Positions 57,348 to 63,988 of a stretch of 64,000 bases of DNA are shown here, piece after piece; position 1 is the stretch's first letter; each line of letters opens with the position of its first letter. Position numbers and translations under genes: made by a program. Source of the stretch: Hydrogenobaculum sp. 3684 (lineage in GTDB: Bacteria; Aquificota; Aquificia; Aquificales; Aquificaceae); assembly GCF_000213785.1 (NCBI RefSeq), contig NC_015557.1, positions 744,001 to 808,000 on the forward strand, read 5' to 3'. The notes under the pieces were generated by a model. That model did no database searches. It was not told the DNA's origin and saw only the letters and a list, made by a program, of their open reading frames with translations.

Positions 57348-57389
57348 TTAATCATAAAAACAGTTAGTTAGCTTTTTTGGTTATAGATT

Positions 57390-58298
57390 TTAAGGCTTTT
57401 CTTGTAAAAGCACATAAAAACTCTCTCCCATGCTAAGTATAAGATTTTTAAGCCTTGAGCACCTTTCGATGGAGTATGCATCCTCCTCCTGGCATACTTC
57501 TTCTATGGTCTTCATAAAATAAGGGATTTCCATAAGGAACTCCCTTTGCTTTTTTAAAAATACGTTTTTAAAACCAAAATACTCTCCTATTTTCTCTAAC
57601 ATAGAAAAATCCACCATGTACGTAATGTCAAATATCTCATCTGAGTATATATTTTGGACAATTTTCGAGTTTTTATAACCTCTTATCGTGTTTTTATAAG
57701 GCGATGTTTTGTACCCGTAGTCTATGCTAAGTATGTATCCTTTTTTTAAAAGCTTTGATATTTTTTGATATATGTAAAAACTATCTATGGGCAATTCGTA
57801 ATAAGCGTTATCTAAATTTAGAATATCAATAAGCATTTTTGTATCCTCATGAGGCTCTTGCCATATTTCTTTTGGTGGTTCTATGTAAAGCTCCTTTTTA
57901 TCTTTTATGGGGGCTATACCAAGAGCATCAAAGAATTCGTTTGATAGCACTATACCCTCAAAAGGCTCTAACATGTCAAGATCATCTATCCAAATTACAT
58001 TTTTACATTTGAGGATTTGTTTTTGAATGTTGGCTAATCTTTGGCTTGTCTCATATATTATATAAGGAATGTCTAAAACATCCAATATATCTTTTGCCAT
58101 AATACCGTTTCCAGCTCCAAGTTCCAATATCTTAGGCTTATCAAAGGTATCTAAGTAGTCTTTCAAAAAATAAGCTATACTTTTTCCAAAAGCCTCATCA
58201 AGTTCTGGTGATGTAAAAAAATCTCCTCTTCCTATTTTAGGATTTGCAGAATAATAGCCTTGGGCTTTTTGTATAAAAAAATCGTAAAAACGTTTCAT
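57390..58298 (-). CDS. MidA/NDUFAF7-family SAM-dependent methyltransferase
   Basis: A 302-residue protein of the DUF185/COG1565 family, whose mitochondrial member NDUFAF7 methylates an arginine in complex I. It opens with YDFFIQKAQGYYSANPKIGRGDFFTSPEL, continues with SAM motif LELGAGNGIMAKDIL, and has VLSNEFFDALG and LSIDYGYK. The bacterial substrate is unknown. I chose the ATG at 58298: TATAAT ends 6 bases before it, and the 29 codons upstream would run through the divergent gene. Confidence 0.87.
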   Translation of the reverse strand: MKRFYDFFIQKAQGYYSANPKIGRGDFFTSPELDEAFGKSIAYFLKDYLDTFDKPKILELGAGNGIMAKDILDVLDIPYIIYETSQRLANIQKQILKCKNVIWIDDLDMLEPFEGIVLSNEFFDALGIAPIKDKKELYIEPPKEIWQEPHEDTKMLIDILNLDNAYYELPIDSFYIYQKISKLLKKGYILSIDYGYKTSPYKNTIRGYKNSKIVQNIYSDEIFDITYMVDFSMLEKIGEYFGFKNVFLKKQREFLMEIPYFMKTIEEVCQEEDAYSIERCSRLKNLILSMGESFYVLLQEKP

Positions 58299-58314
58299 GC
58301 TAAAATTATAACCT
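58299..58314. promoter_or_regulatory. 16-bp divergent start region with overlapping -10 elements
   Basis: The minus-strand TATAAT (58310-58305) lies 6 bases before ATG 58298. The plus-strand TAAAAT (58301-58306) lies 8 bases before ATG 58315. Each -35 region must fall inside the other gene's coding sequence. No ribosome-binding site fits on either strand. Confidence 0.55.
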
Positions 58315-58749
58315 ATGATAATAACAGAAATGACAAAAGAACATGTAGATGAGGTCATAGAGATAAACAATCTATCTTTTACCACGGATGCTTGGAACGA
58401 GCAGGGATTTTATAGAGAGTTTAATTTAGATTATTCAAAAAAGTGGGTAGGATTGGAAGATGGTAAAGTAATAGCCTATGCAATATTTTGGTGTCATGAT
58501 AAAGAAGCTTTTATGATGACATTTGCAGTACACCCAGATTATAGATCAAAAGGAATAGCTTTTAATTTCTTAACAGAGGTTTTCAAGCTTTTAAAAAAAG
58601 AAAATATAAACTATGTAGAACTTGATGTAAGAAAATCAAACCTACCAGCTATAAAATTGTACAAAAAGCTTGGATTTTCTATAGAAAGAGAGCGTCCTAG
58701 TTTTTACTCAGACGGAGAAAACGCTTTCGTAATGTCAAAAGAGCTGTAA
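58315..58749 (+). CDS. rimI: GNAT N-acetyltransferase, RimI-like
   Basis: A 144-residue GNAT fold. The acetyl-CoA site is FAVHPDYRSKGIAFNFL (Q/RxxGxA/G type), then VELDVRKSNLPAIKLYKKLGF and a terminal Tyr region (RPSFYSDGENAFVMSKEL). This pattern is typical of RimI-type acetylation of ribosomal protein bS18, though other protein or metabolite targets are possible. Leaderless start likely. A hairpin terminator starts at its stop codon. Confidence 0.85.
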   Translation: MIITEMTKEHVDEVIEINNLSFTTDAWNEQGFYREFNLDYSKKWVGLEDGKVIAYAIFWCHDKEAFMMTFAVHPDYRSKGIAFNFLTEVFKLLKKENINYVELDVRKSNLPAIKLYKKLGFSIERERPSFYSDGENAFVMSKEL

Positions 58750-61251: not shown

Positions 61252-61704
61252 TCACAATTTTTCAATGATATTATTATCGGCAATTCTTATAAAATTTTTA
61301 GCTTCTTCTATTTTCATCGTTTGTTCCTCATAAGGCTTTATTTTAATAAAAATTCCCTGCATACCTTTTTCAACATGTTTTATAGTATTTACCTCATATA
61401 TTAGGTTGTCATTCTTTATAACATCGTTTTTTTCCAATACGTCCCAAAGGGTTTTCAACATGTTGTCTATATCTCTTCTTCTTTTATCTGGTAAAAATAT
61501 AATAGCTTCAACAGATACCCTGCAAGAAAACGGTTTTTTAAACTTTAGCTTTTTTAGCTGTAAACTTATCTCCCAAGAAGCCTTTGTTTCCCAAGACAAA
61601 ACCTTCCAAGGTTTAAATACAGCTCCGCCCTTTTGCCTTATATACCTGTTTGCTTTTCCTTTTGGAGGCTCTGAAATAAATAGATACAGCGTATCATCTT
61701 CCAT
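61252..61704 (-). CDS. rusA: RusA-family Holliday junction resolvase
   Basis: A 150-residue endonuclease with N-terminal FISEPPKGKANRYIRQKGG and the RusA catalytic block DKRRRDIDNMLKTLWDVLEKNDVIKND, whose aspartates match the metal ligands of E. coli RusA. The Aquifex aeolicus homologue resolves junctions in vitro. RusA is often phage-derived in other bacteria; here it lies in core genes without phage neighbours. The -10 TATATT ends 8 bases before the ATG; pheT diverges after a 16-bp gap. Confidence 0.88.
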   Translation of the reverse strand: MEDDTLYLFISEPPKGKANRYIRQKGGAVFKPWKVLSWETKASWEISLQLKKLKFKKPFSCRVSVEAIIFLPDKRRRDIDNMLKTLWDVLEKNDVIKNDNLIYEVNTIKHVEKGMQGIFIKIKPYEEQTMKIEEAKNFIRIADNNIIEKL

Positions 61705-61720
61705 GATAAAATAATATACT
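61705..61720. promoter_or_regulatory. 16-bp divergent start region between rusA and pheT
   Basis: The plus strand has an extended -10, TGATAAAAT (61704-61712), 8 bases before the pheT ATG at 61721. The minus strand has TATATT 8 bases before the rusA ATG at 61704. As at 58299-58314, there is no room for ribosome-binding sites or separate -35 regions. Confidence 0.55.
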
Positions 61721-63988
61721 ATGTTTGCACCTTTATCAATACTAAGCGAATACGTGGAAATAGAAGATCCTCAATATGTAGCCGATAAACTTTCTATATC
61801 TGGCACTGAGACTACGTTAAAAAGATTTGGTACTGATATAAAAAATGTAAAGGTTGGTGAAATCTTGTCCATACAAAAGCTTGAAAACTTAAATCTATGT
61901 AAAGTATTTTTAGGAGACACCGCTATCGATGTAATAACAAGTGCTTCCAATGTTTACGTGGGTGCTAAAGTACCGGTAGCTGTAAAAGGAGCCTCTTTAG
62001 GTAGTAAAACCATAGATACAAAAACCTTTAAAGGTTTCGAATCTCAAGGTATGCTTTTGTCAGCTTCAGAGCTTGGCTTGGATGATATAGAAGAAGGTAT
62101 CCTAATACTAGATAACAACGTTGAAGTAGGCAAGGATGTAGCGTCTTTGCTTGATTTTGGAGAATATGTGTTAGAATGCGAGATTACACCAAACAGAGGA
62201 GATTTACTTTCTATAGTTGGCATAGCAAGAGAGATAAGCGCCATCACGAACAAACCGTTTAATCTCAACATAGAAAAAGATTTGCCAGAAAAAATAGATA
62301 TAGATATATCAATTGATACTAAAGGATGCTATAGATATGTAGGAAGTGTTGTAGAAGATGTATCTGTTAAAAGCTCAACACTTTTGCTTAAAAAAACTCT
62401 TTGGAAGATGGGTCTTAAAACTATTTCCAACGTTGTGGATATAACAAACTACGTTATGATGATGTTAGGACAACCTCTTCATGCTTTTGATAAAGACAAA
62501 ATTGGCAGTAAAATTGTTATAAGGCAGGCAAAACAAAAAGAGAAACTTATAGCTTTAGATAAAAAAGAATATGAACTTGATGAGTCTATTATGGTTATAG
62601 CCAACGACAAAGGACCAATAGCTTTGGCTGGTGTTATAGGTGGATTAGATAGCTCCATATCTCATGACACAAAAAACATACTTTTAGAATCTGCTCTTTT
62701 TGATCCAATTTTTGTAAGAAAAGCCTCAAAGACTCTAAAGTTATCAACAGATGCCTCTTACAGGTTTGAAAGAGGTATAGATATAGATATGGCTTTAAAA
62801 GCTTCTTTTTTTGCTTTAAAACTCATAGAGAAAGAAGCGGGTGGCAAAGTGATAGGTTATAATGAAGTAATAAGAGAAGCATTACCTGTTAAAAGGTTCT
62901 TCTTACCTATGAACGATTATATAAGATACACTGCCATTAATTTTGAAAAAGAAAAAATATCAGAAATAGCTAACAAATTAGGTATTCCCAACAAACCTAT
63001 GAGATGCGGTATAGAGTTTGAAGCTCCGTCTCACAGATACTACGATATTGACTCTTCCATAGACCTTATAGAAGAAATCGTAAGAATAACAGATTTTAAC
63101 ACCTTTGAAACAGACCCATTAACACTCTTACCAAAGCCCAACGACAAGAAAGATTATACATATGAAATAAAGAATAAATTGGTAGCCAACGGATTAAAGG
63201 AAGTAATAAATTTAAGCTTCGACAAAATAGAAGACTATGAAGCTCTTGGCTTAGAAAAACCCACTATAGAAATCAAAAATCCCATACTACCTTCTTTTAG
63301 GTTTTTAAGAAGATATCTAACGCCATCTATGATAAGGTTGGCAGATCAAAATGTTAAAAAGCACATATACGACTTTGCTATATTTGAGATATCAGATATT
63401 TTTAAAGAAGATTCCCAATCCACACATATATGTATATTGTTAAGAGGGCACAAGAGAATATACCCTAAAACAAAATGGAATATAAACCATATAAAGGAGA
63501 TAATAAAAGCTATAAACAAAGATGTTATGTTTGGCTTTTCTAATTTATCGTTCCTTCATCCTTATCAACAGGGAAGCCTAAAGTTTGACGATAAAGATAT
63601 AGGGTTTTTTGGTGTTTTGAAAAGCGATATACTACAAGATACAATTATCTGTGAGTTTGAAATTCCTAATAAAGCAAAATATCGTGAAATAAAAGAAATA
63701 TCAAAATATCCACCAATAGTAAGAGACATCTCACTGATAATGAGCATTGATTTTGATGTTCAAAAGCTTATTATTCTCATAAGAGAGTTTTTTGGAAGCA
63801 TGCTAGAAAATGTTTTAGTATTTGATTTTTATAAAGGAGAGCAAATAGAAGAAGATAAGAAGAGCGTAGGTTTGAGACTTAGCTTAAGAGCCCTTGATAG
63901 AAGTTTAGAAGATGAAGAAGTAAACGTTCTAATAGAAAAACTGTTAGAACGTCTTAAAGAAGAGGGTATAGAGCTTAGATTTGCTTAG
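61721..63988 (+). CDS. pheT: Phenylalanyl-tRNA synthetase beta subunit
   Basis: A 755-residue beta subunit of the (alpha-beta)2 enzyme. It has an N-terminal tRNA-binding OB domain (about 35-145, GSKTIDTKTFKGFESQGML), the B3/B4 editing domain with LECEITPNRGDLLS, the B5 domain, the pseudo-catalytic core and a C-terminal anticodon-binding FDX-ACB domain (KYPPIVRDISLIM, LSLRALDRSLEDEEV). Its partner pheS is not adjacent in the window. The gene ends 12 bases before the right edge. Confidence 0.97.
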   Translation: MFAPLSILSEYVEIEDPQYVADKLSISGTETTLKRFGTDIKNVKVGEILSIQKLENLNLCKVFLGDTAIDVITSASNVYVGAKVPVAVKGASLGSKTIDTKTFKGFESQGMLLSASELGLDDIEEGILILDNNVEVGKDVASLLDFGEYVLECEITPNRGDLLSIVGIAREISAITNKPFNLNIEKDLPEKIDIDISIDTKGCYRYVGSVVEDVSVKSSTLLLKKTLWKMGLKTISNVVDITNYVMMMLGQPLHAFDKDKIGSKIVIRQAKQKEKLIALDKKEYELDESIMVIANDKGPIALAGVIGGLDSSISHDTKNILLESALFDPIFVRKASKTLKLSTDASYRFERGIDIDMALKASFFALKLIEKEAGGKVIGYNEVIREALPVKRFFLPMNDYIRYTAINFEKEKISEIANKLGIPNKPMRCGIEFEAPSHRYYDIDSSIDLIEEIVRITDFNTFETDPLTLLPKPNDKKDYTYEIKNKLVANGLKEVINLSFDKIEDYEALGLEKPTIEIKNPILPSFRFLRRYLTPSMIRLADQNVKKHIYDFAIFEISDIFKEDSQSTHICILLRGHKRIYPKTKWNINHIKEIIKAINKDVMFGFSNLSFLHPYQQGSLKFDDKDIGFFGVLKSDILQDTIICEFEIPNKAKYREIKEISKYPPIVRDISLIMSIDFDVQKLIILIREFFGSMLENVLVFDFYKGEQIEEDKKSVGLRLSLRALDRSLEDEEVNVLIEKLLERLKEEGIELRFA

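Follow-up and report, generated by a model that had tools for sequence, protein, structure and literature searches.

What allows two head-to-head genes to be expressed when only 16 bp separate their start codons? The question is raised by a midA-like gene and rimI in a 64,000-nucleotide stretch of Hydrogenobaculum sp. 3684 (hereafter the window), which lies in a genome of 1,552,775 bp. Read from its sequence, the gap between the two genes is probably a minimal promoter that works in both directions and gives rise to two leaderless mRNAs, a variant of the bidirectional promoters already known.

The midA and rimI start codons flank two overlapping −10 hexamers

The midA start codon reads CAT at 58296–58298 (ATG on the minus strand) and the rimI ATG occupies 58315–58317, so that the spacing of 16 bp given in a preliminary description of this DNA holds (Table 1). 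Upstream of midA the frame is open for 37 codons in four genomes of the genus and for 6 in a fifth (G025). No upstream midA ATG is common to all five (−20 in G000, −6 and −5 in three, none in G025), and an in-frame ATG upstream of rimI occurs in three genomes and is absent from G000 and G025; ATG 58298 and ATG 58315 are therefore the likely, though not proven, start codons. Because the midA frame is open upstream, gene calls that take the first ATG overlooked this pair. The named relatives of rimI come from two Hydrogenobaculum metagenome assemblies and one Aquificaceae assembly.

Past the 3′ end of midA, at 57365–57395, the sequence ahead of TTTTAAGGC differs among genomes. Three genus genomes (L010–L012) have an apparent end of another reading frame there, and in its place the window has a short stretch resembling a remnant, which would fit the loss of a gene.

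Table 1. Positions, within the window, of the genes and sequence elements discussed in the text.
Feature	Position	Strand	Description
midA-like gene	57390-58298	minus	SAM-dependent methyltransferase; ORF call, PF02636 Methyltransf_28, for which we take midA to be the gene name
rimI	58315-58749	plus	Ribosomal protein S18-alanine N-acetyltransferase; ORF call, TIGR01575 (NCBIfam)
Intergenic gap GCTAAAATTATAACCT	58299-58314		16 bp; proposed bidirectional leaderless promoter core
TATAAT, −10 of midA at −12	58305-58310	minus	ATTATA on plus; predicted transcription start 58298
TGC-TAAAAT, extended −10 of rimI at −14	58298-58306	plus	Predicted transcription start 58313-58315
midA codons 2-14	58257-58295	minus	Also rimI upstream promoter DNA; synonymous constraint in genus
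RusA-like gene	61252-61704	minus
Gap GATAAAATAATATACT between RusA-like gene and pheT	61705-61720		16 bp; plus TGATAAAAT at −14, minus TATTAT at −12
pheT	61721-63988	plus

Reading outwards from the gap, the midA side is TATAAT-TTTAGC-ATG and the rimI side TGC-TAAAAT-TATAACCT-ATG, with the plus-strand hexamer at 58301–58306. As the preliminary description had observed, bases 58305–58306 belong to both hexamers. That description overlooked how far the elements lie from the start codons, the TATAAT at −12 of midA and the extended −10 TGCTAAAAT at −14 of rimI, and the recurrence of the arrangement in the family. The TGn adjoining the rimI hexamer, which we take to make it what is called an extended −10 promoter, is TGC or TGA in 5/5 genus genomes and is absent on the midA side; in the window the midA start codon triplet contributes its last base to this TG.

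A transcription start 7 nt past the midA hexamer falls on the A of its ATG, and with hexamers at −12 and −14 both mRNAs are predicted to be leaderless, rimI with a predicted leader of 0–2 nt. Leaderless genes carry TANNNT about 12 bp before the start codon (Zheng and colleagues 2011; PMC3160421, available portions). Both hexamers fit this motif, that of midA at −12 and that of rimI at −14, in the tail of the genome-wide peak described below. Among 50,000 random 16-bp gaps with the dinucleotide make-up of the window and flanks that were only approximated, 0.57% had a −10 of at least 5/6 at −14 to −11 on both strands.

The host genome bears a leaderless signature at divergent starts

We sampled 427 first-ATG genes in 464 kb of the host genome (400 kb of stretches plus the window). 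TATAAT stood 6 nt before the ATG in 22 genes and 7 nt before it in 13, then in 5, 4 and 5 genes at 8, 9 and 10 nt, and in 0–3 genes at each distance from 11 to 29 nt. The −14 register of rimI is weak genome-wide, with 5 TATAAT and 10 TANAAT on a background of about 3. When starts were scored for a −10 at −14 to −11 (4/6 test), 49/84 divergent starts were positive against 21.7 in the shifted control. The corresponding values for co-directional starts were 34/200 against 29.3 for gaps below 30 bp and 26/126 against 30.7 for larger gaps, so the excess sits at divergent starts. A whole-genome count of TATAAT-N16-18-ATG (69 and 68, control 65 and 57) was not informative, the spacing it covered being the wrong one. 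In the available portions of PMC3160421, leaderless genes make up 20.7% and 32.4% in two of five Aquificae genomes, Aquifex aeolicus being an example.

Divergent gaps of 10–25 bp measured 14, 16 and 23 bp among 42 pairs in G000 and 17, 17 and 20 bp among 47 in G019. These lists may undercount such gaps, since first-ATG calls overlook pairs like midA and rimI, and the samples, including that of G071 below, are too small for any preferred gap length among all divergent pairs.

The gap and the first midA codons are conserved in the genus

A protein search placed midA and rimI head to head in all five genus genomes examined. The preliminary description had proposed checking the gap in related genomes, and it is conserved in 5/5, at 16, 16, 16, 16 and 14 bp; in G025 both hexamers lie at −12. 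The four closer genomes do not differ in the first 12 columns of the gap. The last four bases differ in G000 only, the other three genomes being alike over all 16, so the contrast between core and tail rests on one lineage. For comparison, fourfold sites in these four genomes are invariant in 14/38 cases in midA and 10/34 in rimI.

Synonymous constraint was found in midA codons 2–14, which double as upstream promoter DNA of rimI: the third base was kept in 11/12 same-residue codons against 45/122 later in the gene (p = 2.9e-4). The first codons of rimI had no such constraint (4/9 against 51/102), and in the secF and gatB sets described below the comparable left-gene codons are too few to judge (0/3 and 0/2).

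A second pair of this kind lies 3.4 kb from midA–rimI. The RusA-like gene and pheT have the same 16-bp geometry in 5/5 genus genomes, with TATTAT or TACTAT as the minus-side hexamer.

Outside the genus the midA–rimI pairing was not found: none of 25 midA loci of other genera had rimI within about 1.5 kb on either side, some of the stretches being shorter. A leaderless −10 precedes midA in 6/25 of these loci and is missing in 19/25; it precedes rimI in 10/22 loci of other genera with a start found, three further loci having none found.

The arrangement recurs between unrelated gene pairs in the Aquificaceae

Across 61 Aquificaceae genomes, the pattern CATNNTANNATTATAN{0,6}ATG had 76 matches, orthologous copies included, against 5 for a reversed control, and the matches were spread over 39/61 genomes. 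Counted manually, the variable part was 0, 1, 2, 3, 4, 5 and 6 nt long in 1, 2, 6, 25, 23, 11 and 8 matches. This peak at 3–4 means that TANNAT tends to lie 7–8 nt before the right-hand ATG (48/76 matches, again by manual count), as expected of a leaderless −10. Lengths of 7–30 gave 100 matches against 19 in the control, about 4 per length by manual sums, some of them the same sites reaching a later ATG. The excess comes mostly from genera other than Hydrogenobaculum: the host genome has 1 match and 1 control match, and the genus 12 against 4, with midA–rimI accounting for 5 of the 12.

Of the 76 sites we inspected 20, which were picked and not drawn at random, most of them representing a sequence type each. 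Open frames longer than 60 aa ran from both start codons at 15/20, representing 14 different gene pairs. This was not so at L117, L119, L120, L121 and L124, of which L119–L121 are the three genus sites chosen besides midA–rimI and lack a gene on one side. Proteins encoded at the 15 sites belong to the alanine dehydrogenase, SAICAR synthetase, UbiD, Rrf2, glutamine amidotransferase (GMP-synthase-like), glycerol-3-phosphate acyltransferase, Era-like GTPase, SecF, Ham1, GatB, GTP cyclohydrolase I, YebC, bactofilin, peptidase M23 and enolase families. For the Ham1–GatB sites L123 alone was scanned and L126 is alike by eye; the partner at L127 had no Pfam match and is labelled kinase-like by eye.

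In a search of 121 genomes of the phylum, the N{2,5} form of the pattern matched 63 times in 56 Aquificaceae genomes, where the control never matched, and 7 times in the other 65, where the control matched 4 times. G071, from another family, had no leaderless peak in 257 genes over 280 kb (counts of 1, 2 and 1 where the mean was 2.0), and its 30 divergent gaps included none of 10–25 bp. This one outside genome fits an association of compact shared promoters with leaderless expression, as judged from sequence.

Sets anchored on proteins retain the gap with different partners

We assembled secF and gatB loci from genus g11, 13 of each, anchored on the proteins rather than on the pattern. Nine of the 13 secF genes had a divergent partner at 15 bp and one (L158) at 14 bp; L160 keeps the gap sequence with no long frame opening at its CAT, and the motif gap is absent from L163 and L164. 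For gatB a divergent partner stood at 15 bp in 11/13 loci, ten with a Ham1-like gene and one with the kinase-like gene, and none did so at L186 and L195. Both sets share the 15-bp gap sequence G.TA.AATTATA..C (10 secF and 11 gatB gaps). Among nine secF genomes, picked by the motif, no fourfold site was identical throughout, whether in secF codons 15–100 (0/18) or in the partner (0/19).

At L186 (G033:C2:162576-164076), the shared-promoter motif, here with a gap of 16 bp, is found some 1.5 kb ahead of gatB and not directly at it, a distance that looks as if a gene had been inserted between.

In other genera rimI stands head to head with an NfeD-like gene (gaps of 21–24 bp), a P5C-reductase-like gene (18 bp), a K+ transporter gene (19 bp, to a GTG) or a phosphorylase-family gene (13 bp), one example of each partner family having been scanned. 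Both hexamers (at least 5/6) lie 6–9 nt from the two starts in 10 of the 25 rimI loci examined in other genera (L067, L069, L071, L073, L075, L078, L086, L087, L090 and L091), the rimI start being ambiguous in L086, L087 and L090. The NfeD-like–rimI gaps of 22–24 bp (L067, L069, L071, L073 and L078) have a perfect TATAAT on both strands around a ATTATAAT core, and their letters suggest that they are possibly a second register of the leaderless bidirectional promoter.

The proposed shared leaderless promoter compared with known systems and with other explanations

Bacterial bidirectional promoters have been described by Warman, Grainger and colleagues (PMC12825309, PMC10268837). In the available portions of these papers, −10 elements on opposite strands overlap between divergent genes, as at midA–rimI, and starts lie within 7–25 bp of each other; at midA–rimI they are predicted to be 15–17 bp apart. 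In E. coli a distance of 18 bp between the starts is reported as the commonest, with 10 and 23 bp also found (PMC12825309, in part). The gap studied here differs in its overlap of 2 bp and in a spacing other than these, and it departs from the commonest register, in which −7 and −11 are paired at 18 bp as a preference and not a requirement. It also differs in that both mRNAs are predicted to be leaderless, so that start codons and transcription starts would coincide; the word 'leaderless' does not occur in the available text of PMC10268837 or PMC12825309. Conversely, PMC3160421, as far as available, treats leaderless genes singly and does not describe head-to-head leaderless pairs sharing DNA. 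Bidirectional TATA promoters of Pyrococcus furiosus (PMC6640164, in part) likewise yield transcripts both ways from one element, ascribed to symmetrical binding, but they depend on archaeal TBP and TATA and their second transcripts are mostly antisense, not two bacterial-type leaderless mRNAs. A literature search that reached few subscription papers recognised no description of bacterial leaderless pairs with a shared promoter, which is weak evidence of novelty.

In the mechanism that we propose, the housekeeping sigma factor would read the minus-strand TATAAT and midA would start at or next to its AUG. In the opposite orientation the extended −10 would be read and rimI would start 0–2 nt ahead of its AUG. 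Ribosomes would begin on the 5′ AUG without a Shine-Dalgarno sequence, and the upstream promoter contacts would sit within the first codons of the opposite gene. As the hexamers overlap by 2 bp, polymerase would bind one way or the other, and initiation is likely to be exclusive at each event. The letters and the conservation in the genus thus back the earlier proposal of one polymerase at a time. Its extension to mutually exclusive expression of midA and rimI does not follow, and exclusive expression per cell is not supported: in the available text of PMC12825309, five tested E. coli bidirectional promoters had basal transcription too low for polymerase competition, and one direction was repressed once the other was substantially activated. 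Against the proposed mechanism stand the rimI hexamer in its weak −14 register, the single pattern match of the host genome, equalled by its control, and the many midA genes of other genera that lack a leaderless −10. A further point against it is the lack of a −35: a sigma-70 scan requiring one had no site at the gap, and a TTGACA-like hexamer was not found 16–18 nt upstream.

It is unlikely, in our judgement, that only the midA direction is real, with rimI transcribed otherwise or weakly through the symmetry of a weaker AATTAT at 58304–58309. The midA hexamer is a perfect TATAAT at the modal distance, that of rimI lies at a less usual one, and AATTAT would fit the −7/−11 register with starts 18 bp apart that is common in E. 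coli (PMC10268837, in part). Yet AATTAT would end 4–5 nt before the ATG, a distance at which the genome-wide count does not rise above background. Moreover, the G, T and A of TGNTANAAT, unneeded by the TATAAT side, are conserved across the genus and likewise at secF and gatB, and the synonymous constraint falls on the midA codons that form the upstream DNA of rimI.

Quite improbable, too, is a pair of ordinary promoters inside the opposite genes with long leaders, the −10 look-alikes in the gap being chance products of an AT-rich genome. A minus-strand 10/12 match of the sigma-70 scan at 58565–58538, inside rimI, could serve midA. The same scan, however, found the region no richer in sites than shuffles (13 in 3 kb against 10.4, sd 3.5), neither gene has a Shine-Dalgarno sequence at the usual spacing by eye, and the gap core is kept in 5/5 genus genomes in a layout that recurs. 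An operator for a transcription factor controlling both genes is very improbable: the g11 form CATGCTAAAATTATAAGCATG is nearly palindromic, but the two start codons supply its outer palindrome letters, the pairs are a mixture of mostly housekeeping genes without a common theme, and TATAAT at the same distance precedes many single genes.

Beyond the shared leaderless promoter itself, we consider tentatively, and with clear doubt, that the Aquificaceae core of 14–17 bp, typically G-N-TANAATTATA-NN-C between the start codons, is a selected dual-start module. Such a module would fuse the promoter and both transcription and translation starts into about 21 bp, would be kept while partners exchange, and may set a fixed ratio of the two leaderless mRNAs. 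Its partners would include gatB with a Ham1-family or kinase-like gene, and rimI with midA or with the NfeD-like, P5C-reductase-like and K+-transporter genes, the last three in related, not identical gaps.

For gene calling, the first-ATG rule conceals such pairs, as happened here for midA and rimI. If the shared leaderless promoter is real, polymerase direction choice, ratio locking of conserved pairs and survival of the unit through gene exchange would become testable. The gap would then come close to the lower size limit of a regulatory region serving two genes, leaving no space for leaders or for control of each gene by itself, and leaderless expression and −10 symmetry would jointly permit this extreme compaction.
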